NCBI GenBank assembly: GCA_016871445.1 | Contig: VHDH01000001.1 | Location: 1-64,000, forward strand | Origin: Verrucomicrobiota bacterium | Lineage (GTDB): Bacteria > Verrucomicrobiota > Verrucomicrobiia > Limisphaerales > SXTU01 | DNA: 64,000 bases | Direction of reading: 5' to 3' | Shown: piece by piece, positions 40,781 through 62,178 of the stretch | Layout: every line of letters starts with the position of its first letter | Numbering within the stretch: the first letter of the stretch is position 1 | Notes under the pieces: model-generated | What the model was told of the DNA's origin: nothing | The model's input: only the letters and a program-made list of their open reading frames with translations | Databases searched by the model: none | Position numbers and translations under genes: made by a program

Positions 40781-41302
40781 ATGAAGTTGAACCTGCTTTT
40801 AAAACAGAATCGGTTCCCGCCTCGCACGGCGGGTTTCACGCTCATCGAGGTATTGCTGGTCATCGTCGTCATCCTGATGCTTGCTGGTGCGATGGTGGTC
40901 TTTGTCCTCCCCCAGCAAAAGGGCGCAGAGAAAAACACCACCAAGCTTCTTCTCGCGCAGGTCGCCAACGCGCTCGACACATACCGCCTTAACCTTGGTC
41001 ATTACCCCACCGAGCAGGAAGGCGGCCTAGATGCGCTCTCGAAAAAACCCACCTTTGAAAACGAGCGCATGGGCGAGAAGTGGCAGGGGCCATATCTTAA
41101 ACCCGGCACGACGTTGGATGACCCGTGGGGCTTTAAAATCCGCTATGAGAGAGTTGCTGCTAGCGGGGACAACGCAGAGGCCGGCAACACCACGGCCCTG
41201 CCATACAAGCTCTTCTCCGTAGGTCCCGACGGCCAGCCCGACACAGACGATGATATTAAACACGGGGCCGAGCCTGCCGGAGCGGAAAACACCGGCCGCT
41301 AA
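40781..41302 (+). CDS. gspG: T2SS major pseudopilin GspG
   Basis: Class III signal TAG/FTLIEVLLVIVVILMLAGAMVVFV, DTYRLNLGHYPTEQEGGLDALSKKP, DPWGFKIRY, FSVGPDGQPDTDDDI. Confidence 0.96.
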   Translation: MKLNLLLKQNRFPPRTAGFTLIEVLLVIVVILMLAGAMVVFVLPQQKGAEKNTTKLLLAQVANALDTYRLNLGHYPTEQEGGLDALSKKPTFENERMGEKWQGPYLKPGTTLDDPWGFKIRYERVAASGDNAEAGNTTALPYKLFSVGPDGQPDTDDDIKHGAEPAGAENTGR

Positions 41303-41305
41303 ATC

Positions 41306-42007
41306 ATGCGCTTACCGCACCAATCACCCCACTCCGGTTACACGCTGACCGAGCTGTTGCTCTCGGTTGTGCTCGTGCTCGGACTGTTGGGAGCGGTGGT
41401 CTTCAACTTCTCCTCCGGCTCCCGCACTGCTCAACTGGACGAGGGCGCGACGCAAGTCGAGGCGATGTTCCGCTTTGCCCGCGCGCATGCGGCTAGCACC
41501 GGCAAGCAGGTTCGCGTTTTTTTTCCAGAGGCTGAGTCCGGCGATAACGCCGAGTTGCTCGCTGCGGAGACACCCGGCGCGACCGTTCGCGTGACCTGCG
41601 AGCTCGATCCCATTGGCGCGCCCGGTGTTTTTACCGACGTGCCGGCGGCGGCCAATTTTGTCGCGAGCATCAGCGACCTTGTCAGCATCCAGCAGGTGCA
41701 GTCCGGGGTAGCAGCCTCGGAAAACTCCGCTCAAGTTGCGCCTCCCTCCGGCGAACCGACAGGCGAACCCGCCCCCGTGGAGGCCGCGCGGAGCGCTTTT
41801 GCGACCGTAACCTTTTATCCCGACGGCACGGGGGATACAGTCGAAGTGCTGCTCACCTCCCGCAGCGAAACCGATGCTCGGCGTTTCAGCATCCGCGTCA
41901 CCGGACTCACCGGTTCCATCCGTCGCCAAATCATTGCCGATCCTGCCGCTACCGAAACCGCGCCTTCCGCTTCGGCCACGGAGGCCGCTGCGGAGGTCGC
42001 CCGATGA
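41306..42007 (+). CDS. gspH: T2SS minor pseudopilin, GspH-like
   Basis: HSG/YTLTELLLSVVLVLGLLGAVVFNF prepilin N-terminus; position after gspG. Confidence 0.75.
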   Translation: MRLPHQSPHSGYTLTELLLSVVLVLGLLGAVVFNFSSGSRTAQLDEGATQVEAMFRFARAHAASTGKQVRVFFPEAESGDNAELLAAETPGATVRVTCELDPIGAPGVFTDVPAAANFVASISDLVSIQQVQSGVAASENSAQVAPPSGEPTGEPAPVEAARSAFATVTFYPDGTGDTVEVLLTSRSETDARRFSIRVTGLTGSIRRQIIADPAATETAPSASATEAAAEVAR

Positions 42008-42420
42008 AGTTTTCGTCTGGTTCCGCCGCTCGCGTTCGCGGCACCGCCCTTCTTGAGGTCATTCTTGCGCTTGCGCTCTTTGTTGTGGCCGCAGCCATCG
42101 TCACGAGCGGCATGAATGCTTCCACGGAGAATCTCAGCCGCCAGCGTCGCCATACCCACGCCGCCAATCTGGCTGCCACGGTGCTTGCGGAAATCCAGCT
42201 AGGTATTCGGCGCACGAGCGAAGTTGGCGAACAACCCTTCGCCGCGCCATTCGACCAGTGGACCAGCGAACTCATCGTCACCCCAACCGAGACTGAGTCG
42301 GGCGAGGCCAGCGGTCTCCTGCGCGTGGAAGTCGTCATCCGACACCAGGATTCCGCGCTTGTTCGCCGCCTTGCCCAAATCATCCGCGTGCCGCCCGCCT
42401 CGACTCGCGCCGCTTTTTAA
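42004..42420 (+). CDS. gspI: T2SS minor pseudopilin, GspI-like
   Basis: VRG/TALLEVILALALFVVAAAIVTSGM; ATGA overlap with gspH. Confidence 0.78.
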   Translation: MKFSSGSAARVRGTALLEVILALALFVVAAAIVTSGMNASTENLSRQRRHTHAANLAATVLAEIQLGIRRTSEVGEQPFAAPFDQWTSELIVTPTETESGEASGLLRVEVVIRHQDSALVRRLAQIIRVPPASTRAAF

Positions 42421-42422: not shown

Positions 42423-43217
42423 ATGCGCCTCCCCCGTCATCCTTGCAGCGACCGATGTCAGGTGGTTCTGGCCTCCCAGGCCGCATTTACTCTTTTGGAA
42501 GTCGTCTTCGCCATCGGCATCGCCACCGGTATTCTCGTCGCGGCGCTTGCCTTCCATCATCAAGCCACTGCTTTGCGCGCGAACCTCCTCGACGAAGCAG
42601 AACGCCTCGCCGCCGTTCGCCAGATCATGGACCGTCTCGCTGCCGACCTCCGCGTCGCACCGGGTTACAACCATGTCGGCTTCATCGGTGACTCAAATTC
42701 TCTGCGCTTTGTAACCACCCGCTTGCCGCTCACGCCCGTTGGCTTCGACTCCGACCTGCGCCGCGTGACCTACCGCGCCACCTTCTCCGGCGACGCCACC
42801 AACCTCACTGTTAGCGGCCTCTCACGCCTCGATGAACCGGCCGTGGAACTCATCGCCTCCCCGCTTACGTCAACTGCCGCCACAGGGACGACGACTGAAC
42901 CGGTCGGTGATGCAGCGGAGGAACTCGCCGCCAGCGTCACGAACGCGACCTTGTCCGTCGCTGGCGCTGCCGAGCCGCTCACCGAATCGATTCGCTTCCT
43001 GAATTTTCGTTTCTGGGACGGCTCTGCGTGGCGTGACACATGGAGCGGCGTGGCTCCGCCGCCCGGGGTGGAAATCAGTCTTGGCTTCGAGTCGCTCCCC
43101 GCCGACATGACCCCCGACATGTACCCGGGTGAGGTCTTCCGCCGTGTTATCTTCCTTCCCGCTGGCCAGCCAAAATCAGCGGAGGAGAATCTTGTAGTCC
43201 GCTTGAACCAACAGTGA
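42423..43217 (+). CDS. gspJ: T2SS minor pseudopilin, GspJ-like
   Basis: QAA/FTLLEVVFAIGIATGILVAALAFHHQA; position and size. Confidence 0.75.
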   Translation: MRLPRHPCSDRCQVVLASQAAFTLLEVVFAIGIATGILVAALAFHHQATALRANLLDEAERLAAVRQIMDRLAADLRVAPGYNHVGFIGDSNSLRFVTTRLPLTPVGFDSDLRRVTYRATFSGDATNLTVSGLSRLDEPAVELIASPLTSTAATGTTTEPVGDAAEELAASVTNATLSVAGAAEPLTESIRFLNFRFWDGSAWRDTWSGVAPPPGVEISLGFESLPADMTPDMYPGEVFRRVIFLPAGQPKSAEENLVVRLNQQ

Positions 43218-44827
43218 ACTTGTGCTTTCAACGCGAGCAAACTCGCCTGCCTTATCTCGCTTTCCAAGCGCGAGAAAAGTGGCGCGTGGGGACTCATTCC
43301 TCCGCTTTCGCCCTCGTCGCTGTGCTCGTCATGGTGATGTTGCTCTCGATGCTTGTCATTAGCTTGCTGTTCAGGTTTCAGGCAGAAGACTCCGCTGCAA
43401 GCGCGAGCGTTAACGGCGAGCAAGCATGGGCGGCGGCGATGAGCGGCGTCGAGGAGGCGCTGCGCGTTGCCAGCACCGCCGCCCCCGGTGCCAACGACTG
43501 GCAGGACAATCCGGGCGCTTTCCGCGAGCGGCTTGTCTTCGACGACGGCGGCGAGCGTTGGTTCTTCTCTGTCTTTACGCCGAGCGCGACGCCCGGCGAA
43601 GTCCGCTACGGTCTCGCCGACGAGGCTTCCAAGCTCAACGTCAACGTCGCCGCTGGTGCCAGCCTCGAGAAGCTCCCGCGCGTTTCGCCCGCCATGGCTG
43701 CCGCGCTCGTTGACTTTCTCGACCCCGATGACATACCGGAGCCAGAGGGCGCAGAGCAGGAGTATTACAGCGCCTTGGCTCGGCCTTATACTATTCGCAA
43801 TGGCCCGCTGGCATCGCTTGACGAGTTACTGCTCGTGCGCGGTTTTACGGCGGAAATTCTCCATGGCGCGGCGGCGGCGTCCGCTAACTTGACCAACGAA
43901 GAACCCTCCACGGCCAGTGCTAATACCCGCGTCACGCGCGGCCTCAGCCAGTTCCTCACGGTGGCGTCTTACGAATTTAACACCGACGCCGACGGTTGGG
44001 ACCTCACGAACTTGAACGACCCTGCGTCACCATTGCCCAGCACTGACCGCTTGCCCGCTGCCGTCACGAATTTCATCAGCGCGCTCCGAACAAACGGCGT
44101 GACGCTCAGCCATCCCGCCGAATTGCTTGAAGCCACGTTGCTCATCAAGACCGCGAAGGGCGCCATGACTGAGATCTCCTCTGGCGTGGGCAAGGCTGAG
44201 TTGGCTGCTGTACTCGAACTCTTCACCGCCTCCGATTACTACTACACCGATGGCCTCATTAATGTGAACACCGCCAGTGCCACCGTGCTTGCGACGTTGC
44301 CTGGCGTGGATGAGGCGCTCGCCGAGACCATCGTATCCGCGCGCGGAGCGCTTGGCGCAGGCCGTCGGACAACCACGGCGTGGCTATATCAGGAGGGCGT
44401 GCTCGATGCCGCAAAGTTCAAAGCCCTCGCGCCACTGCTCACCTCGCGCAGCGAGCAATTCACGTTCTGCGTCATTGGCTATGGCCTGCCTTCGGGCCGC
44501 TTCCGCGTGCTGGAGGTGGGCATTGACGTGGCCGGTGGTGACCGCCGCGTGACTTACCTCCGCGATGTGACACGGCGCGGCTTGCCGTTCCCGATTGCCG
44601 GCGAAGCCGAGGGGCAAGTGACGAAGCTCGAAAGCCCAAGTGCGAAAGTGAAACGCAGCTCCCAACTCCCAGCTCCAAATTTTCAATATACTCCAAGCTC
44701 CAAGCTGCCAATACCAAGGCGCGCCTCCAATTTCCCGCATGCGAATCTAGATTCAGAGCAGGCAACGTCTCTGGTGCTAGGACCTTGGATCTGGGGGCTT
44801 TTTTCCTCGGAGGTTTGCCATGGCTGA
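43214..44827 (+). CDS. gspK: T2SS minor pseudopilin GspK
   Basis: Hydrophobic FALVAVLVMVMLLSMLVISLLFRFQAE N-terminus, YGLADEASKLNVNVA, LINVNTASATVLATLPGVDEALAETIVSAR helix-hairpin-helix region. Confidence 0.88.
   Translation: MNLCFQREQTRLPYLAFQAREKWRVGTHSSAFALVAVLVMVMLLSMLVISLLFRFQAEDSAASASVNGEQAWAAAMSGVEEALRVASTAAPGANDWQDNPGAFRERLVFDDGGERWFFSVFTPSATPGEVRYGLADEASKLNVNVAAGASLEKLPRVSPAMAAALVDFLDPDDIPEPEGAEQEYYSALARPYTIRNGPLASLDELLLVRGFTAEILHGAAAASANLTNEEPSTASANTRVTRGLSQFLTVASYEFNTDADGWDLTNLNDPASPLPSTDRLPAAVTNFISALRTNGVTLSHPAELLEATLLIKTAKGAMTEISSGVGKAELAAVLELFTASDYYYTDGLINVNTASATVLATLPGVDEALAETIVSARGALGAGRRTTTAWLYQEGVLDAAKFKALAPLLTSRSEQFTFCVIGYGLPSGRFRVLEVGIDVAGGDRRVTYLRDVTRRGLPFPIAGEAEGQVTKLESPSAKVKRSSQLPAPNFQYTPSSKLPIPRRASNFPHANLDSEQATSLVLGPWIWGLFSSEVCHG
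44657..44711 (+). repeat. Degenerate 7-bp-period repeat within the 3' end of gspK
   Basis: CTCCCAA CTCCCAG CTCCAAA TTTTCAA TATACTC CAAGCTC CAAGCTG CCAATAC. Confidence 0.5.
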
Positions 44828-46445
44828 CCGCGACGCTCTCCCTGCGTTCCCGTTCAAGAGGCCTACTGCCGGGCGCGCGAAACTCCCGTCGCAGGCAACC
44901 TCGCTAGACTTTGACAGCCGCTCGCTCCGTGTCGTCTCGCCTGGACTCAGCCGCATCGCGGTCGCCCCGCTAAACTTGCCCGCTGATGCTGACCGCACTG
45001 ATGCCGCCGTGCTTGGGGCCGCGTTGGCGACTGCGTTGGAGCAACTCAAACTCAAACCCGGCCCCGTAGTAATGGGCTTGCCGCGCGCTCAGGTGGTGCT
45101 CAAGACGCTCCTGCTGCCCGTCGTCGCGGACGTGAACGAACTCGCGTCCATCGTTCATCTGCAAGTCGGACGCGACCTCCCGTTTCGGCTCGCGGACGCG
45201 GTGATTGATTTCCAAATCCTCCGCCAAATCGCGCCGCCTGCACCTAAACCCGACGTGAATGCCAAGCCCGGCGCAGAAGCACCCGCTGCGCCGCCGCCCA
45301 AGGTCGAAGTGCTCGTGGCTGTGGCGAAGCGCGAGGCCGTCGCGTTCTACCAACGCGTCGCGGAAGCGGCAGGCGTGAAACTCGTCGCGCTCGGCCTCTT
45401 GCCAAACGCCGGCGCGCGGTGCGTTGAGGCGTGTCGCGTCGTGGAACGGGGGCAACCCTTCGCGCTCGTGTCGCTGCGCGTGGATGAAGTCAGCATTGAG
45501 ATCGCGTGTGACAGCGCAGTGCCGTTCAGCCGCGGTGCGGCATTGAAGCCAATGGACGCGAACGCGCCGGAGACATTCGTCAACGCCGCGACGATTGAAG
45601 CCGTCCGCAGCTTGCACAGTCACGGCGGCCAGGGCGCGGCAGGGTCACCCGCGAGGGTTTTCGTCAGCGGCGCGACGGGCCAAGAAGCTGCGCTTGCCAC
45701 TGCACTCGCCGCTCGCATGAGTGTGCCGGTGGCCGCGCTGGACACGGCGGCGCTCGACTTGCCGACGGAGGCGCGGGTGGACGCGGGCGGTTCCGCCGCC
45801 GCCATCGGCTTGGTGCTCGGCTACGCGGACACAAACGGGTTGCCGTTTGATTTTCTTAACCCGAAGCGTCCTGCCGTCCCGCGCGATATGCGGCGCGTGA
45901 AGATTCTTGCCGGCTTGGCCGTGACGGCGGCGTTGTTCATCGTCGTGGCGGGCATTCGGCATTGGCTCATCGGGAAACGCCAGACCGTGCTCGATGCCGT
46001 AACCGCCGAGGCTGTGCTTGCGGAGAAAAACCGACCTGCGTACCGGAAGGTAATTTCGCAGGCGGCCGTGGTGAACGAGTGGGTCGGTGGCGAGCGCGAC
46101 TGGCTGCTGCATTATGCGCACCTTAGCGCTGTGCTCCCGCGCAGCGAGGAGATGTTTCTCACATCCTTCGCGGTAAGTGGGCCGGGTGCATTAAGGCTGG
46201 GTGTGCGCGCGAAAAGTGGAGCGATTCTGGCGAAGATGGAAAAGCAGCTCCGCGCCGCCGGCTATGAGGTCAAGCCGCTTGCCATCACGCCGGGTGCGGA
46301 CAAAAATGGCTATGAATTCCAGTCCACCGTCGAACTAGGTGTACCGGCGAAGCTCAAAATTGACACCACGCAACTGCTGCCACCGGAGCGCCCGGCGGAT
46401 GACGCTTCCCTCGACCCACCAGGACGCAGGAGAGGAGGCGGATGA
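44820..46445 (+). CDS. gspL: T2SS GspL-like (PilM/PilN-like) inner membrane assembly protein
   Basis: N-terminal actin-like region (SLDFDSRSLRVVSPG...VVMGLPRAQVVLKTLLLPVV), single TM MRRVKILAGLAVTAALFIVVAGI, periplasmic ferredoxin-like tail; overlaps gspK by 8 bp. Confidence 0.75.
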   Translation: MADRDALPAFPFKRPTAGRAKLPSQATSLDFDSRSLRVVSPGLSRIAVAPLNLPADADRTDAAVLGAALATALEQLKLKPGPVVMGLPRAQVVLKTLLLPVVADVNELASIVHLQVGRDLPFRLADAVIDFQILRQIAPPAPKPDVNAKPGAEAPAAPPPKVEVLVAVAKREAVAFYQRVAEAAGVKLVALGLLPNAGARCVEACRVVERGQPFALVSLRVDEVSIEIACDSAVPFSRGAALKPMDANAPETFVNAATIEAVRSLHSHGGQGAAGSPARVFVSGATGQEAALATALAARMSVPVAALDTAALDLPTEARVDAGGSAAAIGLVLGYADTNGLPFDFLNPKRPAVPRDMRRVKILAGLAVTAALFIVVAGIRHWLIGKRQTVLDAVTAEAVLAEKNRPAYRKVISQAAVVNEWVGGERDWLLHYAHLSAVLPRSEEMFLTSFAVSGPGALRLGVRAKSGAILAKMEKQLRAAGYEVKPLAITPGADKNGYEFQSTVELGVPAKLKIDTTQLLPPERPADDASLDPPGRRRGGG

Positions 46446-47485
46446 ACACCCGCGAGAAAAAACTTGCCGCGATGGTTCTCGGCACTGCGGCGCTCTTCAG
46501 CGGTTTGCTGGGCATTCGCACGTTTATTTCGCGCCCGCTTGTAGACCTCGATAAACGGATCGTCGCCGCTCGCGAGCGACTCGGAAAAATCCAGACCGAA
46601 CGGCGGAATTTCTTCACTGCCGAGGACCGCTTGAAGTCGCTGACCAAGCTTGCTTATGCCGACACGACCGACGAGGCCAGCGCGCGTTCGGGCGAGGTGC
46701 TGACGAAACAGATTGTTCAAGCGGGCTTGGACGAAGGCGACTTCACCCGGCTGCCGCTTGGCCCGCGCAAACTTCGGGGCGCGAGCGAGATCGGCTGGAG
46801 CGTACAGGGCGATGGGCCGTTGGCGAGGGTCGTGAACTTGCTCTTCATCCTTGAACAATCGCCGCATTTGCTACGGATCGAAGGGTTGGTGCTCTCGCAG
46901 GCGGAGAAGCCTGGCGACGTGCGCGTGCGCTTCCGCTTCCTGACGCTCGTGCTGGATCCCGCGCCCGAGGTCAAGCGTGAGGTGCTCACGGCGAAGGTGG
47001 ACTTAAAGTCTGAAGCCCGCCACGTCTTCGACGGCATCGTCACGCGGGACTTACTGCGGCCTTACATTAAACGTCCGCCGCCACCGCCGGTCGTCGCGAA
47101 GACAGGTAGCAATTCCTCTGCTTCCGCGGTGCCCGCCACGCCGCCGGGACCACCTGGCCCGGAGACTTTCCGCGTCGTCTCGCTCTCCGAATGGCAGGGC
47201 CAGCCCGAAATCCACGTGCGCGACCTCACCGCGCAGAAAACAGTTCGTTATAAGTCGGGTGATACGTTGGCGGGAGGAACCATTGTGCTGGTGGATTATC
47301 GTGCACTGCCATTGCCCGGCGGGAATGGGTTGCTTTCCGACAGCCGGGTCATCGTGCGCGTGAAGGACGAGTTCTTCGCTATTGAGCGCGGCCAGACATT
47401 GGGAGATTTACGGAAGCTGGAACTTGCACAGCTCCCGCCAGAATTGGCAAAATCTGTTGGTAACCTGCCGCGCACGACACCATGA
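46442..47485 (+). CDS. gspM: T2SS GspM-like protein with C-terminal HR (GspC)-like region
   Basis: Short N-terminal TM (LAAMVLGTAALFSGLLGI) and coiled coil as in GspM/PilO; C-terminal YKSGDTLAGGTIVLVDYRALPLPGGNGLLSDSRVIVRVKDEFFAIERGQTLGDLRKL resembles a GspC HR domain; ATGA overlap with gspL. Confidence 0.65.
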   Translation: MNTREKKLAAMVLGTAALFSGLLGIRTFISRPLVDLDKRIVAARERLGKIQTERRNFFTAEDRLKSLTKLAYADTTDEASARSGEVLTKQIVQAGLDEGDFTRLPLGPRKLRGASEIGWSVQGDGPLARVVNLLFILEQSPHLLRIEGLVLSQAEKPGDVRVRFRFLTLVLDPAPEVKREVLTAKVDLKSEARHVFDGIVTRDLLRPYIKRPPPPPVVAKTGSNSSASAVPATPPGPPGPETFRVVSLSEWQGQPEIHVRDLTAQKTVRYKSGDTLAGGTIVLVDYRALPLPGGNGLLSDSRVIVRVKDEFFAIERGQTLGDLRKLELAQLPPELAKSVGNLPRTTP

Positions 47486-47498: not shown

Positions 47499-50400
47499 AT
47501 GAACCGAACGCACCCTCCGCTCCTCGCCCTTGCGCTCCTCGTCGGCACGTTCACCCTCGCGGCGCAGGACGCGCCGAAGGCCCCGGCTGTTGCCGTGCCC
47601 GCCACGAACGCCCCCACGAAGGCCGTCACCATCGCGCCCAGCACCGCCGCGCCCGCGTCCAACGCGCGCAACATTCGCTTTCAGTTCGATGGCATTCCTT
47701 ACGGCGATGTCATCGAACGGTTTGCGCAAATGGCGGGCAAGCCACTTCTCGCTGGCAACAAACCCGAGGGCACGCTGACCTACAATGACCCCAACGCCTA
47801 CACTTATGGCGAGGCGCTCGACACGCTCAACGTCGTCCTCGCGATGAAGGGCGTCATGCTCGTCGAGAACGCGAACTACCTCCAACTCGTGCCTTTTAAG
47901 GAGCTGCCGTCCACGCCGCTGAAGCTCCTGCGCGGCGCCGCACCCGTCGGAGACGTGCGGCCCGGCGAGGTCGTTACCGCCGTGCTCGACGCTAAGAACG
48001 TAGACTCGAAGGAAATCACGGATTCGCTCACCTCGATGCTATCGAGCGCCGGTTCCATGGCCGTGCTGCCGCGCGGGCGCGGCATCATCATCACCGACCG
48101 GCTGGCGAATATTCAGCGCATCAAAACTCTGCTCGCCACCATCGACATCGAGGCACCAGCCGAGCGAATGATGAAAACCTTCGCGCTGCAAAATAGCTCT
48201 GGGGCGATAGTTGCCGACCTGCTCAACCGCACTTTCGGTGTCGCCACCGCACCCAGGCGCCAAGAGTTCAACCCAAATACCAAGGCGATGCAAATCCTGC
48301 CGCCGGACCCGAACGAATACATCACTGCGGTCTACGACGACGCCTCGCGCACGATGGTGCTATTCGGCCCGCGCGAGCGCATCGCGCTGGCGGAGGAGTT
48401 GATTGCGAAGTTCGAGCAACGCGAAGGCCCCTCCGGCGATGTGCGCATTTACCAGCTGCAGTCCACCAAGGCCGACGAAATCGCCATGATTATCCGACAG
48501 GCGATTCCCGGCGTTGCCGAGCCAAAAGAAACTGGCTCTGCGGCCGCCACCAAGGCGCGCGTCATCGCCGACTCACAGCAAAACCGCCTCATCGTCGCGT
48601 CGCCCGTGGCAGGACAGTTGGAGCAGATTGATCTGCTCATCAGCCGCGTGGACAAAGGCACGACCGGTAACGTGAATACCAACAACGCGCCGCTCCGGGT
48701 TCAGTCAGTGATGCTCACCAAAGTCTTCCGTCCCCGTGCGACCGAGCCAAAGGACTTCGCCCAAATTGTTACACAGGCGCTCACGCGGCGCGACCCCGGC
48801 GGGCGCGCCGGCATCACCGCCAGTGTCATTCACGATCCCGGCAGCAAGACGGTAGTAATCTCCGGTACGCTTGGCGACCTCCAGACCGCGACGGAGATTC
48901 TCACACAGTTGGAGACTGGCACTTCCCAACCGCAGGCGCTCCAGACGCGTTTCATCGAAGTCGGCACGGCGGCGGACGCGAAGCGCCTGTTGCCGCTCGT
49001 GGAAGAGCTTTACCGCAACCAAATGAGCGGCGCGGGCGCGCTCGACTCCGGCGCGCACGCCAAGCTGATGAGCGACGATAACGGGAGGCTCATCGTGACG
49101 GCGAGCGAGGCACACCTGATTCGGGTGGAGGAGCTTGTAAAGCAACTGCGTGGAAAAAACGGCGTGGTGATGAACCGCCAGCTTTCGATCATTGCACTTA
49201 AAAACACCAAGTTGGATGCGATCCTCGCTGGTTTTGAGAAGCTACTCTCTGACCGCATGGCCGACCGACGCTTCGAGGGCCAGCCAAAGCCCTCGGTCGT
49301 GCCAGATAACGCGAACAACCGGGTGCTCGTCACGGCAACCCCTGAGCAGTTGAAGGAGATTGAGCAACTCGTGCAAGTGGTGGATGTCGCGCCTGCAACG
49401 CAACGCCGCGAGATGGTTGTCCTCCCCGTGCGCGCCAAGACCCCGGCGGAAATCATCACCCTCGCCACGCAACTCCTCGCACAGATGGGTGGCGCTGGCG
49501 CGGACCCCCAGATGGAGCCCAAGCTCATCCCCGACGCGAGCGGTAAACAAATCATTTTGCTCGCTGCCCAGAAAGATTTGCAGCGTGTGCGCGAGTTGGT
49601 CACTCAGCTCGACACGGCCACCATCCAGAACCTCGCCCGCCAGTTCCGTTCGGTGGAACTCAATGCGCGCTCGGCAGCGGAGCTAACCCCGCTAGTCACG
49701 CAGCTTTATCAGGAGCAACTTAAGGGGCAGAACGAGCCGCCCGGCGGCGCGGCCACTGTGCTCGCTGACGCCAAGAACAACCGCATCATGGTCAGCGGCG
49801 CGGACGCGGAAATCACCCGTGTCGAGGCCATCATCCGCCAGCTCGACCCCGCCGGCCGGAAGCCCGCCCGTGACGAAACGCGCGTCTTTCGCTTGCGTGC
49901 CGCGCTGGCCGCCGAAATTTCCGGCCTCGTCGAAAAGAGCCTTAATGCGCAGGCACAGACGGTAAAAGTGCTCGTGGACGCGCGCAGCAATAGCCTCATC
50001 CTCAGTGGGGAGCCGGATGCGGTCGAGGCCGCATCGAAAGTCATCCAACAGCTCGACACGCCCGGCGACGTGCAGCCGCGCGAGATGCGTGTGATGGAGT
50101 TGAAGCAGGGCGACGCTGCCGCCATCGCCGCGCTCGCCACGCCGCTGGTCACCGAACTGCTCAAGAGCCAACGCGGGCCGGAGTATTCGCCCACGGTCAA
50201 AATCATCGCCGACGCTGCCTCGAACCGACTCATCATCAGCGGGCCGCGCAACGAGCTGCTCGCGGTTAATACCATCGTTGAACAACTCGACCAAGCGCCC
50301 GAAGGCGCGGGCGGCGCGCGCGTGTTCAAGCTCAATAACGCCACCGCGCTCAAGGTTGTTGGGGTCGTCTCCAACGCGATGGTGAAGTTTGACGCGCGCA

Positions 50401-53400
50401 ACCAGCCCATCCGCCGGATCACCGTAAGTGCAGACCCGGATTCAAACAGTATTGTCGTCGCGGGTACACGGCAGGACCTGAAGGACGCCGAGAACATCAT
50501 CCAGCGCCTTGATAATGAGGGCATTGACCCGTCGAGTCTGGAAAAACCCAAGGGCATGAAGCTTGTCGAAGTGCGCGGCGATGCTGACGCGCTCGCTGCG
50601 TTGGCCACGCGCATCTTCACAGCGCAAGCCGGGCGCAGCGCGTTGACGAATCTCGTGAGCATCACACCGAACGGCAAACGTCTTATCGTGCTAGCGCCTG
50701 AGGCGATGCTGCCGCAAATCGAGGCACTGGTGAACTCGCTTGATGCAAAGCCTGATGAGTTGCAACGCGAGCTGCATCCTATCGTGCTTAAGAACGCCTC
50801 CGCCACGGAACTGCTGCCCAAGGTCACGGCAATTTACTCCGAGCAGTCCGCCGGCAAGACACAGAAGCCCGCGACGATTTACGCCGACGCCAGCGGCACG
50901 CGGCTCAATGTCTTCGGCACGAAGCAGCAGGCCGAGGCGATTCAGCAGATTGCCGACACGCTCGCCGGGAGCGCGCCCGCGACGCGCGAGACGAAGCTGA
51001 TTGACCTCGGCAAACTCACCGAAGCCAAGCGTGTGATGGCGCTCGCACTCCAGCTCTACAAAGACCAGTTCGCCGCCAACCCTCAGCTCGGCCCTGCCGA
51101 CGCGCAGATGGTCAGCGACGGCGTCTCTGGCCGCGTCATCGTCAGCGCGCGCGCGGACCAGATGAAAGCCATCGAGGACATCTTCAAGCGGCTCGAACTC
51201 ACGCCCGCCGCCTCGGCCGCGCGCGAGACGCGCATGATTGAAGTTGGCTCCGCGAACGACGTGGCGCGGCTGCTGCCCATTGTGCAAAAGCTTTATGCCG
51301 AACAGTGGAAAGACCGACCCGAGACCGACCCGGCGGACGCGCAAATCGTCGCCGACCCGCAGGGCGGGCGCGTCATTGTCACAGGCCGGCCGGAGCACGT
51401 GAAGGAGATTGAAGGCATCTTGCAGAAGCTCGGCACGGCTAAGGCCAAGCCGCAGGCGCGCGAGACGCGACTCTTCGATCTTACCACCGCCAGCGCGACA
51501 GAATTGGTCACGACCTTGAAGGTGCTTTACACCGAGGACGCCAAGGCGCGCTTTGGCGCACAGACGCCGGATACGCTAATCATGGCCGACACGAGCGCGA
51601 ACCGGTTAATTGCGGTGGGTGACACGGTGGAGCTCGAAGCTGTCGCCGGGCTGGTGAAGAAACTCGATTCCAGCGCCGCGCAAAGTTCAACGGCGCGGGT
51701 ATTCAAGATTAAGTCCGCCGATCCGGCGAAGGTTGCCGAGGTGCTCACCACCGCACTGGTGCGCTTTGACGCGCTGGGCCGCGCGCAGAAGCGCGTGAGC
51801 GTCTCAGTGGACGCGAAGACCCGCACTCTCATCGTGACCGGCGATGCCAAGGAACTCGCCGCTGTTCCCACGATCATTGAACAACTCGATCAGTCACTCG
51901 GAGAACAGCCGGAGCGGAAAATACAAACTGTGCAGCTTAACTCCACGACCCCGAACACGCTGCTTTCGCAGGCACGCAAACTTTACGACGACCAAATTAA
52001 GACGCAGCCGGAACTCACCGTGTCCGAGTTGCTCGTGATGGATGATGCCAGTGGCAGCCAGCTCATCCTCGCCGGCAGCGACGCGCAGTTGAAGTTGTTC
52101 ACCCGCATCTTAGATGACCTGCAAAAGCTTCAAGTCACGCCCGGTGAGCGGGTGACTAAGTCGTTCGACCTTGGCCCAGCCGATGAGGTCACGCGGCTTG
52201 TGCCACTGGTGCGCTCGTTCTACGAGGAGAAGTGGCGCACGCGGCCGCTCTCGGACCCGGCGGACGCGACGTTCCTGCCTGACACGCGCAACGGCCGCGT
52301 CATTGTCACGGGTCGCACGAACCACCTTGTGGAGATTGAGGCGTTGCTCGGACAGTTGCGCGATGGGGCGGCGATGGAGCCGCGCACCACGCGTTTTTTT
52401 GACCTGACCAGCAGCGATGCCGGCATGCTGGTCGCCACGTTGCGCCCGCTGTATCTCGAACAAGCTAAACTGCGGCCCGGTGCACCGGCGCAGAATACGC
52501 TGATCCTCGCGGAGACAAATTCCAACCGCCTCATCGTGACCGGTACGGCTAATGAGCTGAGCGTGGTCGAGCAACTCGTCCGCGAGTTGGACAAGGCCAG
52601 CCCGCAGAGCGCCATTGCGCGTATCTTCAACCTTAAGACGGCCGACCTCGCGCAAGTCTCGGAAATCCTCACCAACGCCTTTGTGACGGCAGACCGCATC
52701 GGTCGCTCGACCAAACGCATCAGCGTGGTGGTGGACGCCAAGAATCGCAGCTTGATTGTCACAGGCGAGGTACGTGATTTGCAGGCGGTGGGGAAATTGA
52801 TTGAGCAAATCGATGCTTCGCCCGCGAGCACAAACCAGGTGCGCTCGATGCGAGTCTTCGCGTTGAAAGGCCGGCGGGCGACGGAGACCGCGCCGAAGAT
52901 TCGGCAAGTGTTTGAGGAGCGCGCGCGCAGCTTGCCGGAGGTCGGCACAGCGGGCGCGGTCATCGTCGAAGACATCCCCGGCAACCAGTTGATTTTCGTC
53001 GGCACTGAGGCGCAGCTCGCGCTCATGCAGGAAACCGCCGACGTAATGGATAAAGCTGGTACAACGCTCGGCCGCGAAGTGCGGGTGTTTCCGTTGGAGC
53101 GTAATTCTGCTGACGCCGTGGTGGTGATGCTCAACCGCCTGTTCCCGCGTCAGACCGGCACCACGGATCGCGAGGACCGCATGCTCATCAGCGCCGGCGG
53201 CGACGACAACACGCTCATCGTGGACGCGACCCGAACGGATTTAGACAAGGTTGAGCAGCTGCTGCGCGTGATGGACGCTTCACCCGCCGGCGACAAGACG
53301 ACTTTCCACGCCGTACGTCTCACGAAGGGCAAAGCCGAGGAAGTTGCGACCGCTGTGACCGAGTCGTTCACCGCGAAGCTGGGCCGGGGAAAACTACCGC

Positions 53401-56400
53401 GCACGACGGTGACGCCCGTCAATGGTGCAAACACGCTGCTCATCAACGGCCCGAACGGTGAGGTCGAGAACGTGCTAAAAATCATCCAGTCGCTCGATGT
53501 GGAGATGAAGGGAGACGAGGTCGAGATTCGCATTTACAAGTTGGAGAACGGTACGGCGAAGGAAGTTTCTCTCATCATTGAGCAGTTGCTTCAAGGGATG
53601 GGCCGCGCCCGCGCCCGCGCCGCGGCGAATGTGACCGTGGACCCGCGCGCTAACTCGCTCATCATTTCTGGCACGCCCGCTCACTTCCGCGTGGTGGAAA
53701 AGGTGCTGCCGACGCTCGACAAAGCCCCTGAGCGCGCTGACCGCGATGTGCAGTTCGTGTGGCTGAAGAAGGCGAAAGCGTTCGACGTGAGCGCGAAATT
53801 GGAGGCGCTGTTTAGCGAGCGGCCCAAGGGAGAGCAACCGCTCATCGAGCCGGACGTGATGAACAATTCCCTCACCGTCATCGCCAAGCGTGCCGACCTC
53901 GCGCAAATTCAAGACCTCATCACGCGCCTCGACGAGCAGAGCAAAGACAACAGCATCCAAGTCCGCCTCCGCCCGCTGGACCGCGTCGTGGCCGAGCAGA
54001 TGGCGAAGATGTTGCAAAGCATCTATCCGCAGATGTCGCGTGGCACCGTGCGAGTGGTGGAGAAATTGGATCCACTTAAGCCCGCCGCGACCAACGCGCC
54101 CGCTACCAAAGCCCCGGCCAATGCGCCTGCTGCCCAGCCGCAAGCTGCCGTCGCGGACACGAACGCAGTCCCCGAGGTCGTCATCGCGGTGGATAAAAAC
54201 GCAAACTCGCTTTTGCTCTCCGGTCCAGCATCGGAATTGGACAACGTCGAGCGCATCATTAGCGACCTCTCGCTGAACTTTTACAGCAACGAGGCCGAGT
54301 TCCGCCTGTTCCCGCTCAAGGACGCTGACCCCATCGTCGTCGCGCGCACGTTGAATGAGTTGCTCCGCATGCCGCCGGTGGCCGTCACGCCGCAACGGCC
54401 CGGCGAACCGGTCCGAACGGTGGAGCAACCGCCACGCATCACCGTCGTGGCCGAGCAGCGCACCCGCAGCGTGGTGGTGCGCGCGCGGCCTACGGACTTT
54501 GCGTTGATGGAGTCGCTAATCAAGCAACTCGACAGCGCGGGCCAGACAGCCCAGCTCGATTTTCGCAGCGTGCCACTCACCAATGCGCCGCCGGAGAAAG
54601 TCCTGCCGCTCGTGCAGCAGCTGGTCACCCAGCTCAACCTCATCCGCCCCGGCGAGCCGCTCACGGTGGTGATTGACCCCCGTTCGCGCGGGCTGCTGGT
54701 CGTCGCGCGCGAGGCCGTCATCCTTCAAGTGGAGAAGATGATTCAATCGCTCGACAAACCTGCGCCTTATATCGAGGCCGAGGTGATGGTGTTCCAATTA
54801 CGGAAGGCGAATGCAACCTCCCTCGCGCTTGTGTTGCAAAACATGATTCGCCCCGGTCCGCAGGGGACGCAGTCGCCTGAAGCCCGCGAGTTGCAAGAGC
54901 AAATTCGCCGCCTGCGCGTGCTGGGCGAAGATGGGGAGGCCGTCTCGCTTGACCTCACCAAGCCCATCAAAATCAGTGCCGACGGCACGGGCGGCGGCAA
55001 CCGCCTGCTACTCACCTCCACGCCGGACAACCTCAAGGCACTCGCTGCCGTCGTCGAGTTGATGGACACGCCGCAAATCACCGAGGGCGTGAACGTCCGC
55101 ATCATCAAACTCCAGCATGCCGACGCAGCGACCGTCTCGACCACGTTGCAGAGCATCTTCACCCAGGGCCGCACGCTTGCCACCGGCCCCGGCGGGCCGG
55201 GCGCGCAGCCCGAGGGCCTAACCGGCAAGGCACTCGTCAACCCCGTCGGCATCGGTGTGGACGCGCGCTCGAACACGCTCATCCTCAGCGGTCAGAACGA
55301 ATCCATCGAGCTGGCCTCGAAACTGGTGGAAGACCTCGACAAGGCAGTGGACCATCCCGTCACGGAAGTCCGCCTGTTCCGGCTGAAACACGCGTCTGCC
55401 GCGCGGTTACTGCCGATGCTGCAAAGTGTCTTCGCTGAAGGCGCGCCGGTGCCTGGCACGGAGGGTTTGAAGACGCAGGTTACTCGGCTTCGCACGTTGC
55501 GCGAGGCAAACACGCCGCGCGTCACTGATGCCGCGAAATCCCGCGCCGCGCTCGCCATGCAGGCGGATGATTTCTCGAACATCCTCATCGTTGCCGCTCG
55601 CAGCGACATGCTGCCGCTCATCGCCGATGTCGTAGAGCAACTCGATATTCCCTCCGCCTCCGGCTTGGAAACTGTCCGCATCTTCCCACTCGCGCATGCG
55701 GACCCAGCGGCGGTGCAAAAGGTGCTGGCTGACCTCTATGCTGGTCAGCGCGCCGGCACCGTTCGTAACGAAGATAAACCCGTCATCACACTCGATGACC
55801 GCACCGGCTCGCTCATCGTTGCGGGCAACGCAAAAAGCTTCGCCATAATCGAGGGCCTGCTTCAATCGCTCGACCGCCAGTTGCCCTTCGACCTGCGCGA
55901 CATTCGCATCCTGCCGCTGGAGAACGCGGACGCAAATGTCGTCGCTGGCACATTGCAGAAGCTCATGGATGCGCGGCTCACGCAGCGCGCGCAGTTGAAC
56001 AAGTCCCAGGCCGACGCGCTTAAGGTCATTATCCTCGCCGATCAGCGTAGCAACGCCCTGCTTGTGGGCGGCGGTCGCGACGCCTTCGATATGGTGCAGA
56101 TGCTCGCGAAGCAGCTCGACACACCCGGAGCGGCGTTAAGTGGACGCATCCGCTTGGTAGCCGTTCAATTCGCGGACGCGCGCCTGTTGGCTGCGACGCT
56201 GACGACGCTCTTCGAACAGCGTTACTCCACCGCCCGCGCGACCGACGTGCAGCGGAACAAGCCGGTGATTCTCCCTGACCCGCGCAGCAACAGCTTACTC
56301 ATCACCGCCAGCCAGGAGGACAACCGTGCGATTGATGAGCTGCTGCAACGCCTCGACACGCGGTTAGACAACCCGGCACTCCAACTCACCGTGCTGCCAC

Positions 56401-59318
56401 TCAAGCACAACGACGCTGCGCGCGTGGCTGCAATGATTGAGAGTATCTTCGCCGCGCGCCGCACCGCGCAGACCCTCCCCGGTCAGCCGCCCTTACCCAA
56501 CACGCAAATCAAGCTGGAGCCGGACCCGCTGAACAACTCGCTCGTCGTTTCCGCCAGCAAGGAGAACGTGGAGTTGATTCAGGACTTGCTGAAGAAACTG
56601 GACGCCGAGCCGGCCATCGCGGGCGGCGTGCTAGAGGTGTTCCCGTTGCAGTTCGCGGACGCCACGCGCGTCGGGGCATTACTGACTTCACTCGTGCAGC
56701 AGGGGCTTTACCGGCCCGGCCAGTTACCCGGCGCGCCGCGCGCGACCTCCATGGACAAGCTCGCCGTGACTGTGGACCCGCGCAGCAATTCACTCTTTGT
56801 TAGCGCCAGCCCAGAAACCATGACTGTGGTGCGCGAGGTCATTAAACGCATGGACGTGCAGGAGCAGAACCTGACCGGCGACGTGAAACTCTTTCAACTT
56901 AAGAACGCCCGGGCCAGCACGCTCGCCGCGACACTCACGCAGTTTTTCACCGCCAAGCAGGCCGCTGACACCGCACTCATCGCCAACGCTAATCAGCGCC
57001 GCCTGCCCGCCACCGTTATTGCTGACGACCGCGTGAACACACTGCTCGTGACCGGCGGGAAGGAAGCGTTCGACTTCGTTGAGCGCCTGCTCCCGCAACT
57101 CGATGGCGAGGGGACCTTCAACAAGCTGAATTTCCGCGTGTTCCCGTTGAAGAAGGCCACGGCGCAGAAACTACAAGCGACGTTGCAGCCTATCTTCGCG
57201 AATCGCCCGCCCCGTGTGCGAGGCGAGCCGAACGACCCCATCACCATCATCGCCGATGCGTGGGTAAATGCGTTGCTCGTGGGCGCAAACGTTGAGGACC
57301 TGAGCGCGATCGAGTCACTCATCAACCAACTTGACACCGATCCGATGCCAAACGGACTCGCCATCCATGTCTTCCCGCTGGCCAAGGCGGACGTGCGGAA
57401 GGTGGCGCTGACCGTGCAAGGCTTGTTCCGCGATGGCCCGCCCGGCCAACCCGGCCAACAGACGCAGGTGCAAGTCACGGCGGACGAGCGCATCAACGCG
57501 CTGGTCGTGTCCTGTGGCGAGGTGGACGCCCGGCGCATAGCCGAATTGGTAAAGCGCCTCGACACCGAGCAAGTCGCGCGCGTGGCCGAGATCCGTGTCT
57601 TCCCGCTAAAGCACGCTCGCGCCGAGACGCTTTCAACCATCCTCAACACTGCGTTGAACACCAAGCCCACGCCGCTTTCCGACCAACAAAACCCTAACGC
57701 GCAGTCAGTGCTTCAATTCATCACGCGTTCGAACGAGGGCCGCGAGCTGATCACGGCAGCGTTGAAGGAAGCCGTCTTGATCACGCCTGACCCACGCATG
57801 AATTCGCTCATCGTGAGCGGTCCAGTGGATTACATGGGCCTGCTGGAACAGATCATCAGCCGGCTCGACGCAAGCTCGCCGCAGGAGGCGAAGATTAAAG
57901 TCTTCGCCCTAAAGAACTCCTCTGCCCGCGCCATGGCGGACATTCTCACGCAAATGTTCCGCATGACGGCAACGGCGACGACGGCCAGCCAGCGCACAAT
58001 CCAATACACCCTTGTTCGCCCTGGCGGCACAAATGACGCCGCCAGCGCAACGCTCGGCTCAGCGGAACAGACTTCGCTCACAGTCACCGTGGATCCACGC
58101 ACGAACAGCTTGCTCGTGGGCGGCACGGATCATTACGTCAAGATGGTTGAGCAGATCATTGAGTCGCTCGATACCTCCACGGCGAATGACCGGCGCACAG
58201 AAGTAATTCGTTTGAAAAACACGCAGTCCTCCGACGTGGCAGGCGCGGTCCGTAACTTCCTCGACCAAGAACGCCAACGCGTGACGCAAGTGCTCGGCGC
58301 GGATGCCGTCGGAGCCGCACAGCAGATGCTTGAGCGGGAAGTTGCCGTGGTGGGCGAGACGAACAGCAACACGCTCCTCCTCTCCGCCAGCCCGCGTTAC
58401 TTCACTCAGGTACAAGACTTGATCAAGGAGCTCGATAAGTCCCAGCCGCAGGTGATGATCCAGGTTGTGCTAGCAGAAGTGGCACTGAACGAGGGGCGGG
58501 ATATTGGCTTGGAGTGGAATGTGTCCGGTGGACCGACCTATTCGGCCGGCCTTGGATTGGGTTTAGCGAACGCGGTGAGGAACGGTTTCACGGCTGCGCT
58601 TACAGGCGGTGATACTACCTTTATTCTTAAGGCGTTAAAGGATCAATCCAAGTTAGAAGTCCTGAGCCGGCCGCAGATCGTCACGGCGGACAACAAGCCT
58701 GCGAGTATCAACGTGGGCCAGCGCGTGCCGCTCATCACCGACAGCCGTGTGACTGTGCAGGGCGACACTATCAACTCCTTCCGCTACGAAGACATCGGCG
58801 TTAACCTGACCGTCACGCCCAAGATCAGCCTCGACGGCTTTGTGAAGCTCGAGTTGGGCACGACTAATTCTTCGCTCGCCAGTTCCGACGTTAAGATCAA
58901 TGCGTCCGCTACCGTACCTGTCATCAACCAACGCCGCGCCAACACCACCGTGAGCGTGCAGAATGGCCAGACCATCATCATCGGCGGCCTTATCGGCACA
59001 CAGGAAGACCGCCGCGTGCGCCGTGTGCCGGTGCTCGGCGACATCCCCTACCTTGGCGCAGCGTTCCGCAGCACCAAGATCACGAAAGAGCGGAAAGAGC
59101 TGTTGATCTTCCTCACGCCGCAGATTCTCGCGAACAACAATCAGGATCCGGTGCCGCTGACTGATCCGGCCAATGCGCTGCGCGAACAGATAGACCGTTC
59201 CCGCATCAGCCCAGAACTCAAGCGCAACGAGTTCAACCAGCCAGTGCTGGAGCCAATTTTTCCGGCCCCACCGGCCCCGCCGACTACCCCCAGCGGACGT
59301 AAGCCCACCGGTTCATAA
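47499..59318 (+). CDS. gspD: Giant T2SS secretin (GspD-like, about 3,939 aa) with about 43 tandem N-domain-like units
   Basis: Signal peptide (MNRTHPPLLALALLVGTFTLAAQ), N0-like region, repeated ...RSNSLIVSG...xxIxxLIxxLD units, C-terminal secretin (VEVLSRPQIVTADNKPASINVGQRVPLITDS; YEDIGVNLTVTPKI; VQNGQTIIIGGLIGTQEDRRVRRVPVLGDIPYLGAAFRS). Confidence 0.93.
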   Translation: MNRTHPPLLALALLVGTFTLAAQDAPKAPAVAVPATNAPTKAVTIAPSTAAPASNARNIRFQFDGIPYGDVIERFAQMAGKPLLAGNKPEGTLTYNDPNAYTYGEALDTLNVVLAMKGVMLVENANYLQLVPFKELPSTPLKLLRGAAPVGDVRPGEVVTAVLDAKNVDSKEITDSLTSMLSSAGSMAVLPRGRGIIITDRLANIQRIKTLLATIDIEAPAERMMKTFALQNSSGAIVADLLNRTFGVATAPRRQEFNPNTKAMQILPPDPNEYITAVYDDASRTMVLFGPRERIALAEELIAKFEQREGPSGDVRIYQLQSTKADEIAMIIRQAIPGVAEPKETGSAAATKARVIADSQQNRLIVASPVAGQLEQIDLLISRVDKGTTGNVNTNNAPLRVQSVMLTKVFRPRATEPKDFAQIVTQALTRRDPGGRAGITASVIHDPGSKTVVISGTLGDLQTATEILTQLETGTSQPQALQTRFIEVGTAADAKRLLPLVEELYRNQMSGAGALDSGAHAKLMSDDNGRLIVTASEAHLIRVEELVKQLRGKNGVVMNRQLSIIALKNTKLDAILAGFEKLLSDRMADRRFEGQPKPSVVPDNANNRVLVTATPEQLKEIEQLVQVVDVAPATQRREMVVLPVRAKTPAEIITLATQLLAQMGGAGADPQMEPKLIPDASGKQIILLAAQKDLQRVRELVTQLDTATIQNLARQFRSVELNARSAAELTPLVTQLYQEQLKGQNEPPGGAATVLADAKNNRIMVSGADAEITRVEAIIRQLDPAGRKPARDETRVFRLRAALAAEISGLVEKSLNAQAQTVKVLVDARSNSLILSGEPDAVEAASKVIQQLDTPGDVQPREMRVMELKQGDAAAIAALATPLVTELLKSQRGPEYSPTVKIIADAASNRLIISGPRNELLAVNTIVEQLDQAPEGAGGARVFKLNNATALKVVGVVSNAMVKFDARNQPIRRITVSADPDSNSIVVAGTRQDLKDAENIIQRLDNEGIDPSSLEKPKGMKLVEVRGDADALAALATRIFTAQAGRSALTNLVSITPNGKRLIVLAPEAMLPQIEALVNSLDAKPDELQRELHPIVLKNASATELLPKVTAIYSEQSAGKTQKPATIYADASGTRLNVFGTKQQAEAIQQIADTLAGSAPATRETKLIDLGKLTEAKRVMALALQLYKDQFAANPQLGPADAQMVSDGVSGRVIVSARADQMKAIEDIFKRLELTPAASAARETRMIEVGSANDVARLLPIVQKLYAEQWKDRPETDPADAQIVADPQGGRVIVTGRPEHVKEIEGILQKLGTAKAKPQARETRLFDLTTASATELVTTLKVLYTEDAKARFGAQTPDTLIMADTSANRLIAVGDTVELEAVAGLVKKLDSSAAQSSTARVFKIKSADPAKVAEVLTTALVRFDALGRAQKRVSVSVDAKTRTLIVTGDAKELAAVPTIIEQLDQSLGEQPERKIQTVQLNSTTPNTLLSQARKLYDDQIKTQPELTVSELLVMDDASGSQLILAGSDAQLKLFTRILDDLQKLQVTPGERVTKSFDLGPADEVTRLVPLVRSFYEEKWRTRPLSDPADATFLPDTRNGRVIVTGRTNHLVEIEALLGQLRDGAAMEPRTTRFFDLTSSDAGMLVATLRPLYLEQAKLRPGAPAQNTLILAETNSNRLIVTGTANELSVVEQLVRELDKASPQSAIARIFNLKTADLAQVSEILTNAFVTADRIGRSTKRISVVVDAKNRSLIVTGEVRDLQAVGKLIEQIDASPASTNQVRSMRVFALKGRRATETAPKIRQVFEERARSLPEVGTAGAVIVEDIPGNQLIFVGTEAQLALMQETADVMDKAGTTLGREVRVFPLERNSADAVVVMLNRLFPRQTGTTDREDRMLISAGGDDNTLIVDATRTDLDKVEQLLRVMDASPAGDKTTFHAVRLTKGKAEEVATAVTESFTAKLGRGKLPRTTVTPVNGANTLLINGPNGEVENVLKIIQSLDVEMKGDEVEIRIYKLENGTAKEVSLIIEQLLQGMGRARARAAANVTVDPRANSLIISGTPAHFRVVEKVLPTLDKAPERADRDVQFVWLKKAKAFDVSAKLEALFSERPKGEQPLIEPDVMNNSLTVIAKRADLAQIQDLITRLDEQSKDNSIQVRLRPLDRVVAEQMAKMLQSIYPQMSRGTVRVVEKLDPLKPAATNAPATKAPANAPAAQPQAAVADTNAVPEVVIAVDKNANSLLLSGPASELDNVERIISDLSLNFYSNEAEFRLFPLKDADPIVVARTLNELLRMPPVAVTPQRPGEPVRTVEQPPRITVVAEQRTRSVVVRARPTDFALMESLIKQLDSAGQTAQLDFRSVPLTNAPPEKVLPLVQQLVTQLNLIRPGEPLTVVIDPRSRGLLVVAREAVILQVEKMIQSLDKPAPYIEAEVMVFQLRKANATSLALVLQNMIRPGPQGTQSPEARELQEQIRRLRVLGEDGEAVSLDLTKPIKISADGTGGGNRLLLTSTPDNLKALAAVVELMDTPQITEGVNVRIIKLQHADAATVSTTLQSIFTQGRTLATGPGGPGAQPEGLTGKALVNPVGIGVDARSNTLILSGQNESIELASKLVEDLDKAVDHPVTEVRLFRLKHASAARLLPMLQSVFAEGAPVPGTEGLKTQVTRLRTLREANTPRVTDAAKSRAALAMQADDFSNILIVAARSDMLPLIADVVEQLDIPSASGLETVRIFPLAHADPAAVQKVLADLYAGQRAGTVRNEDKPVITLDDRTGSLIVAGNAKSFAIIEGLLQSLDRQLPFDLRDIRILPLENADANVVAGTLQKLMDARLTQRAQLNKSQADALKVIILADQRSNALLVGGGRDAFDMVQMLAKQLDTPGAALSGRIRLVAVQFADARLLAATLTTLFEQRYSTARATDVQRNKPVILPDPRSNSLLITASQEDNRAIDELLQRLDTRLDNPALQLTVLPLKHNDAARVAAMIESIFAARRTAQTLPGQPPLPNTQIKLEPDPLNNSLVVSASKENVELIQDLLKKLDAEPAIAGGVLEVFPLQFADATRVGALLTSLVQQGLYRPGQLPGAPRATSMDKLAVTVDPRSNSLFVSASPETMTVVREVIKRMDVQEQNLTGDVKLFQLKNARASTLAATLTQFFTAKQAADTALIANANQRRLPATVIADDRVNTLLVTGGKEAFDFVERLLPQLDGEGTFNKLNFRVFPLKKATAQKLQATLQPIFANRPPRVRGEPNDPITIIADAWVNALLVGANVEDLSAIESLINQLDTDPMPNGLAIHVFPLAKADVRKVALTVQGLFRDGPPGQPGQQTQVQVTADERINALVVSCGEVDARRIAELVKRLDTEQVARVAEIRVFPLKHARAETLSTILNTALNTKPTPLSDQQNPNAQSVLQFITRSNEGRELITAALKEAVLITPDPRMNSLIVSGPVDYMGLLEQIISRLDASSPQEAKIKVFALKNSSARAMADILTQMFRMTATATTASQRTIQYTLVRPGGTNDAASATLGSAEQTSLTVTVDPRTNSLLVGGTDHYVKMVEQIIESLDTSTANDRRTEVIRLKNTQSSDVAGAVRNFLDQERQRVTQVLGADAVGAAQQMLEREVAVVGETNSNTLLLSASPRYFTQVQDLIKELDKSQPQVMIQVVLAEVALNEGRDIGLEWNVSGGPTYSAGLGLGLANAVRNGFTAALTGGDTTFILKALKDQSKLEVLSRPQIVTADNKPASINVGQRVPLITDSRVTVQGDTINSFRYEDIGVNLTVTPKISLDGFVKLELGTTNSSLASSDVKINASATVPVINQRRANTTVSVQNGQTIIIGGLIGTQEDRRVRRVPVLGDIPYLGAAFRSTKITKERKELLIFLTPQILANNNQDPVPLTDPANALREQIDRSRISPELKRNEFNQPVLEPIFPAPPAPPTTPSGRKPTGS
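47950..58435 (+). repeat. Tandem array of about 43 secretin N1/N2/N3-like (NolW/Secretin_N) units, about 240 bp each
   Basis: Manual count of the unit-terminal motif (e.g. RSNSLILSGEPDAVEAASKVIQQLD, RANSLIISGTPAHFRVVEKVLPTLD, RTNSLLVGGTDHYVKMVEQIIESLD). Confidence 0.85.
51220..53060 (+). repeat. Four-unit higher-order duplication inside gspD (about 51220-52130 and 52150-53060)
   Basis: Order-preserved pairs: DPADAQIVADPQGGRVIVTGRPEHVKEIEGIL/DPADATFLPDTRNGRVIVTGRTNHLVEIEALL; RETRLFDLTTASATELVTTLKVLY/RTTRFFDLTSSDAGMLVATLRPLY; ARVFKIKSADPAKVAEVLTTALVRFDALGRAQKRVSVSVDAKTRTLIVTG/ARIFNLKTADLAQVSEILTNAFVTADRIGRSTKRISVVVDAKNRSLIVTG. Confidence 0.8.
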
Positions 59319-59329: not shown

Positions 59330-59872
59330 ATGATGGCCCGCTTCTTGCCGCGGCGGCTGCTGCCCGCCGCTCCGCTTCCGCTTTGTTCGGGCGTTTGGTT
59401 GCTGGTGCTGATCTTGGCGCTCGCTGGCGGACCAGGCTGCGGTTCATTACGGCTGGGCGGCGATGATCAAGAAGTGCAGGAATTGCATCTGCTGGTGGCG
59501 CCGGGCGCGTTGCCATCCCTGGCTTCGCCCCGCCCCACCGGCCTTGTGGTGCGGGTGTTCGCCAGCAGCCGCGTACGGGCGAAGGGCCTGCCCATCCGCG
59601 CAGGCACCCTCGAAATCATGGCCTATGACGGGACTATCCCGGACGCCGCATCACCCGCCCGCCCACCCGCACAGCTGTGGGTCTTTCCGGCGGCGAAGCT
59701 CGCGGCCCTCGCCGCTACCAGTTCACTTGGCACCGGCTATGAGTTGGAACTTCCATGGCAGGGGCCGCGTCCGACGGCCGGCCGGCTGGTGATCATGGCC
59801 CGCTTGGTGCCGCCCCGCACCGGCCCCGCGATTTTCACCGCGCCAAGCGTGATCCCCAACGGGCTGAAGTAA
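59330..59872 (+). CDS. Hypothetical secreted protein or lipoprotein downstream of gspD
   Basis: 180-aa ORF with hydrophobic N-terminus ending in a degenerate lipobox (LILALAGGPGC); 11 bp after the gspD stop. Confidence 0.65.
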   Translation: MMARFLPRRLLPAAPLPLCSGVWLLVLILALAGGPGCGSLRLGGDDQEVQELHLLVAPGALPSLASPRPTGLVVRVFASSRVRAKGLPIRAGTLEIMAYDGTIPDAASPARPPAQLWVFPAAKLAALAATSSLGTGYELELPWQGPRPTAGRLVIMARLVPPRTGPAIFTAPSVIPNGLK

Positions 59873-61314: not shown

Positions 61315-61393
61315 GCACCCCGGCTGCCTCGCACTGGCAACGCTGGGTTTGCCTGCTCGCCGCCCATGTGCCATAACCGCCGTGCACACACTT

Positions 61394-62176: not shown

Positions 62177-62178
62177 TC

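Follow-up and report, generated by a model that had tools for sequence, protein, structure and literature searches.

Secretins described so far carry only a few N rings. The 64,000-nucleotide stretch of DNA analysed here (the window) encodes a GspD-like secretin in which N units are roughly ten times as numerous, and the question it raises is how such a protein is built and in what envelope it could work.

The giant secretin gene and its operon

The sequence-only reading had described one uninterrupted 11.8 kb open reading frame (ORF) of about 3,939 aa from position 47499, and we find exactly this frame, free of internal stops. It has a layout of signal peptide, N0, N1, 42 further N-type units and a single Secretin domain, as follows:

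47499..59318, + strand: giant GspD-like secretin, 3,939 aa, mature mass ~423 kDa
47499..47564, + strand: signal peptide (MNRTHPPLLALALLVGTFTLAA), from the sequence and a start region shared by relatives; its end is approximate, not a computed cleavage site
47667..47910, + strand: N0 domain, approximate limits (PF21305 weak, 17.5 bits; profile alignment)
47976..48155 (aa ~160-218), + strand: N1, first Secretin_N unit (PF03958, 33.7 bits)
48177..58436, + strand: array of 42 further N-type units, u1-u42 (self-profile; 35-37 units pass Pfam alone)
51018..52814, + strand: u13-u20, two four-unit blocks (u13-16 versus u17-20, with u14 resembling u18, u15 resembling u19 and u16 resembling u20)
58632..59129 (aa 3712-3877), + strand: Secretin domain, the outer-membrane barrel (PF00263, 165.9 bits)

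The N0-like region that had been proposed is real, since a profile built from aa 53-228 can be aligned with the N0-N1 region of solved GspD/XcpQ structures (E = 9e-8). The Secretin domain is indeed single (PF00263), but its start had been placed about 190 bp too early (~58440-59130, instead of a start at 58632). The GspD equivalog model TIGR02517 scores 1,141 bits against a cut-off of 351.35, a value inflated by 22 repeated stretches, of which the best lies at aa 3428-3881; the PilQ and SctC models are also above cut-off, their scores likewise inflated.

With respect to the number of units, an iterated self-profile places 42 of them at aa 227-3646 (each E ≤ 1.2e-12, a strength partly due to self-fitting), which together with N1 gives 43 in total and agrees with the earlier manual count of about 43. 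The HMM scan proposed as a check on that count recovers 35 separate Secretin_N stretches with Pfam (summed 1,138.8 bits), showing the units to be Secretin_N-like, and a genome-wide profile search finds 37 PF03958 places in the giant frame. KH-domain and HMA Pfam matches within the array overlap Secretin_N units. Chance or degenerate motif counting was rejected, as the Pfam matches and the self-profile lie far above chance. For units 34-38, aligned over 26 relatives, an AF2 block model of middling confidence (pLDDT 71.6, pTM 0.59) contains five beta-alpha-beta-beta-alpha domains, and its top Foldseek matches (E = 5e-10) are T2SS secretins and DR_0774; each of the five modelled units is predicted to have the ring-building fold. 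The model leaves the angle between units free and its inter-domain geometry fails to superpose on GspD (TM 0.15-0.30), and the unit sequence profile places consecutive units on consecutive N domains of GspD.

The giant gene is the D gene of a complete type II secretion (T2SS) operon with the order E-F-G-H-I-J-K-L-M-D, in which no separate gspC is seen:

37668..39338, + strand: GspE ATPase (PF00437, PF05157, TIGR02533)
39399..40601, + strand: GspF (PF00482, TIGR02120)
40781..41302, + strand: GspG major pseudopilin (PF08334; TIGR01710; above cut-off)
41306..42007, + strand: GspH (PF12019)
42004..42420, + strand: GspI-like minor pseudopilin (weak sub-threshold N_methyl; position)
42423..43217, + strand: GspJ-like minor pseudopilin (PF11612 below cut-off; position)
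43214..44827, + strand: GspK minor pseudopilin (PF21687, PF03934, NF037980)
44820..46445, + strand: GspL/PilM-like protein (PF11104, TIGR01175)
46442..47485, + strand: GspM/PilO-like inner-membrane protein (AF2 model, Foldseek)
59330..59872, + strand: small lipoprotein (LAGGPGC, lipobox-like), candidate pilotin, conserved beside the giant gene

We observe the order G-H-I-J-K-L-M-D-lipoprotein in most relatives whose contig extends far enough, while in family f97 (L070, L073) E, F, G and H are located after the lipoprotein. Since the operon is both complete and conserved in relatives, it points to a functional machine and not to an isolated oddity, in line with what its context had suggested. 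The small lipoprotein adjoins most giant genes that could be checked; the Pfam scan gave no family for it, and its motif GPDGIGVRVFAS recalls, by eye, TssJ-like lipoproteins. A sulfatase gene precedes gspE (36116-37639), and genes for a 3-keto-disaccharide hydrolase and an amidase follow the operon (61256-62176 and 62098-63207); the products of all three are possible T2SS cargo or chance neighbours.

The product of the gene just upstream of the giant secretin (46442..47485) gave no direct sequence match to solved structures, and for this reason a fold model was made. The model shows a membrane helix, a ferredoxin-like domain, a Pro-rich linker and a C-terminal six-strand domain, with Foldseek matches to PilO (3jc8 chain Oa, E = 1.7e-4), 5uvr, 2rjz and Amuc_1100, and weak matches to PilP (E = 0.05-0.09). 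Its predicted fold resembles that of PilO/PilP of type IV pili (T4P) and GspM/GspC-HR of T2SS, but here both domains are apparently fused in one protein of 347 aa. Judging from the model, the six-strand domain is probably PilP/GspC-HR-like and the whole protein probably the anchor of N0; its gene is kept in nearly all giant loci that reach it. PilP is a partner of the secretin N0 in known systems. The same is true of GspC-HR (PMC6882859), and if the pairing holds here, N0 would lie near the inner membrane and the array would have to bridge the remaining gap.

Spread across Limisphaerales and conservation of unit order

With a 267-aa internal stretch as query and E ≤ 2e-20 as the threshold for a strong match, the giant gene is found in 97 of the 320 genomes searched in the order (Limisphaerales/Pedosphaera-type Verrucomicrobiota), spread over ~20 families; by our count, ~70 of the 97 carriers have it in a frame that stays open for 3,000 aa or more. 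Named carrier records are Limisphaerales, Pedosphaera and uncultured Verrucomicrobia, with isolate names mostly of lakes and groundwater. Samples of the class and phylum beyond the order yield ordinary secretins only and no giants (longest frame among the matches listed, ~1,130 aa); other phyla were covered by one contig scan, which detects close relatives only. In five giant-gene records (L083, L085, L106, L089 and L090), the title names Akkermansia muciniphila, Klebsiella pneumoniae or Proteobacteria; these records are 76-91% identical to the window and look like misnamed verrucomicrobial bins.

Orthologues with variable unit counts, a search for which had been suggested, are readily found. 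Among 37 complete proteins, including that of the window, 42 units is the commonest count (n = 13), followed by 46 (n = 7), and the same profile gives a range of ~24-55 (shortest ~24-25). The longest relative seen is an ORF of 5,155 aa in L116, with ~55 units by profile.

Reciprocal best matches pair same-position units across species, typically 37-42 of the 42 pairs and nearly all in order, with identities of 46-90%; for the distant families f6, f12, f17, f21 and f97, 17-29 unit pairs are left and the order is mostly kept. Units u1-u2 and u24-u42 are present in most relatives, whereas u3-u21 are gained or lost between species, often in fours, the most variable copy number being that of u13-u20 with u3-u12 and u21. 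In 11 species with 42 units (f1, f7, f9, f10), u1-u42 span 3332-3356 aa, a difference of <1%, and the linkers are mostly 9-12 aa long (SD mostly 0-0.9 aa, few up to 4.5). Our reading of these sequence comparisons is that the array would be an old expansion frozen in register, its ends fixed and its middle adjustable. That one species after another keeps its units in the same order suggests that the export channel is real and very long, and seemingly nobody has described it before: the literature searched, with most subscription journals and preprints outside its coverage, holds no description of a giant secretin.

Relatives of the giant secretin

The giant secretin shares N0, N1, repeated Secretin_N units, the Secretin barrel and the T2SS operon with GspD/PulD/XcpQ, as seen from sequence and fold matches, and departs from GspD in unit number, not in kind: GspD/PulD/XcpQ have four N domains (N0-N3) in ~650 aa and ~20 nm, whereas the giant has N0 plus 43 units in 3,939 aa. 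Thermus thermophilus PilQ likewise carries additional N rings, for which a role in spanning a wide periplasm was proposed (PMC5745081), but is a T4P/DNA-uptake secretin of 757 aa with N0-N5, and thus seven-fold fewer rings. Deinococcus DR_0774 (8co1) matches the units of the giant in sequence and fold, but is a type IV piliation-like protein of 740 aa with far fewer units.

A Secretin-domain tree places the giants on one side of a branch and split secretins on the other, and the AU test does not reject monophyly of the giants (p-AU = 0.345). The nearest tree relatives are these two-gene secretins of T2SS type from the same order and class, which belong to a second gspK-bearing locus and, unlike the giant, have N-domain and barrel proteins encoded separately, with ~four N units. 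One is present in the window's own genome (L113, 5747-8893, contig C21) and others in L117, L118, L127, L129 and L130. The N-domain protein has a Gly/Asn/Gln-rich tail and the barrel protein a signal-peptide-like start, with the last N domain apparently divided between the two genes, and several families keep this arrangement. A programmed frameshift was considered for the split secretin and rejected, since both halves have a separate start and begin with a signal-peptide-like N-terminus, which makes a two-gene secretin the simpler explanation. The window's own genome also encodes five GspF-type platform proteins (contigs C1, C21, C35, C73 and C137), which indicates several type IV filament machines in a genome of 3.5 Mb.

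A proposed ring stack and envelope depth

The N0-N2 ring of XcpQ is 8 nm high (PMC5646246), PulD plus HR measures ~20 nm (PMC6882859), and the Thermus PilQ, whose six rings were called unusual (PMC5745081), measures ~35 nm in a periplasm of ~70 nm (PMC5745081, PMC4463427). These heights correspond to ~2-4 nm per ring, and hence to ~90-180 nm for the giant if every unit forms a ring; the sequence-only reading had inferred a stem of ~100 nm.

We give about an even chance to a T2SS secretin whose ~44 rings are stacked in fixed register, forming an extended conduit with conserved ends and a length-variable middle. Protomers would assemble as in other secretins, with one ring per unit and the rings held in register; N0 would dock on the PilO/PilP-like anchor in the inner membrane, whose gene immediately precedes that of the secretin, and the last units of the array would join the barrel. 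The stack would then be a conduit of ~90-180 nm, along which a pseudopilus might push folded enzymes. The array ends would be fixed because they are in contact with partners, and the middle would act as a spacer, its unit number tuned by gain and loss. We infer the extension of the stalk from the fixed linker and array lengths, the positional orthology, the predicted ring-building fold and the adjacent inner-membrane anchor, all of which favour it.

The likely setting of such a stack would be an envelope region with the two membranes far apart. We take the verrucomicrobial subdivision of strain Ellin514 to be the one that holds the order of the giant gene. This subdivision 3 verrucomicrobium was described with a ribosome-free outer compartment, an invaginated 'paryphoplasm' (PMC2647929), and such compartments were later argued to be periplasm in the case of the planctomycete Gemmata (review PMC5945725). 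That the whole order builds a ~44-ring T2SS tube of at least 90 nm, with its ring number tuned mid-stack to a deep or invaginated periplasm, has in our view a chance slightly short of even. If this is true, and the secretin is a 15-mer, the ~44-ring assembly would amount to ~6.3 MDa. The family, with 24-55 units, would hold the longest secretin stalk known, and its range of counts is a natural length ladder for asking what sets ring number. The giant secretin would furthermore allow the wide periplasm ('paryphoplasm') long discussed for Verrucomicrobiota to be tested directly, because a length-conserved trans-periplasmic protein gauges the distance between the membranes.

A gap of 100 nm everywhere is unlikely, since the same genome encodes TolC-type proteins of ordinary length (495-513 aa), the two-gene secretin with four N units and an 810-aa secretin; the alternatives would be a local deep zone of the envelope or a compact stalk. 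In a compact or beaded stalk, rings would come only from N0/N1 and the last few units, with the rest folded back, in zig-zag or as a tether, and the machine would sit in an ordinary periplasm with its units acting as springs or spacers. The ordinary-length conduits speak for this arrangement, as do the known flexibility of N0-N2 rings (PMC5646246) and the AF2 block without confident inter-domain geometry. We nevertheless consider it rather unlikely, since an array of flexible beads could drift in length and be reshuffled without harm, whereas linkers and overall length hardly vary between families and each unit keeps its identity and position.

The extended ring stack is also to be weighed against a substrate-handling array, in which units or rings would bind, sort or store cargo in folded form, or attach to peptidoglycan, and selection on unit number would act through binding capacity instead of length. 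Substrate binding by secretin N domains has been reported (PMC5646246), the units differ strongly among themselves (mean identity within one protein, 27%), and the sulfatase gene lies directly before gspE. This gene is, however, not generally found beside other giant genes (few loci reach so far), Pfam finds no additional enzymatic or wall-binding domain, many families have 42 or 46 units, and the 42-unit species compared keep their length within 1%, all of which makes such an array distinctly improbable.

An assembly artefact, frameshift fusion or decaying repeat array is hardly credible: the assemblies are draft and metagenome-type, and giant genes of two relatives contain exact repeats of 287 and 102 bp, but the longest exact repeat in the window's giant ORF is 16 bp (13-16 bp in five shuffles), leaving a short-read assembler nothing to collapse or expand, and the gene recurs across the order (97/320 genomes) with 42 as the commonest unit count. 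Differences from a relative at 89% aa identity are distributed over codon positions as 0.101/0.043/0.359, which indicates purifying selection on the giant frame. Artefact or frameshift, named beforehand as one route to refutation, finds no support as far as sequence allows, nor does the other route, units unlike Secretin_N; on the repeat lengths, codon-position pattern and order-wide orthologues we reject both assembly artefact and recent slippage. The repeats of 287 and 102 bp lie inside the giant ORFs of L070 and L071 (family f97); they are probably recent unit duplications, so that in this family the array may still be growing.
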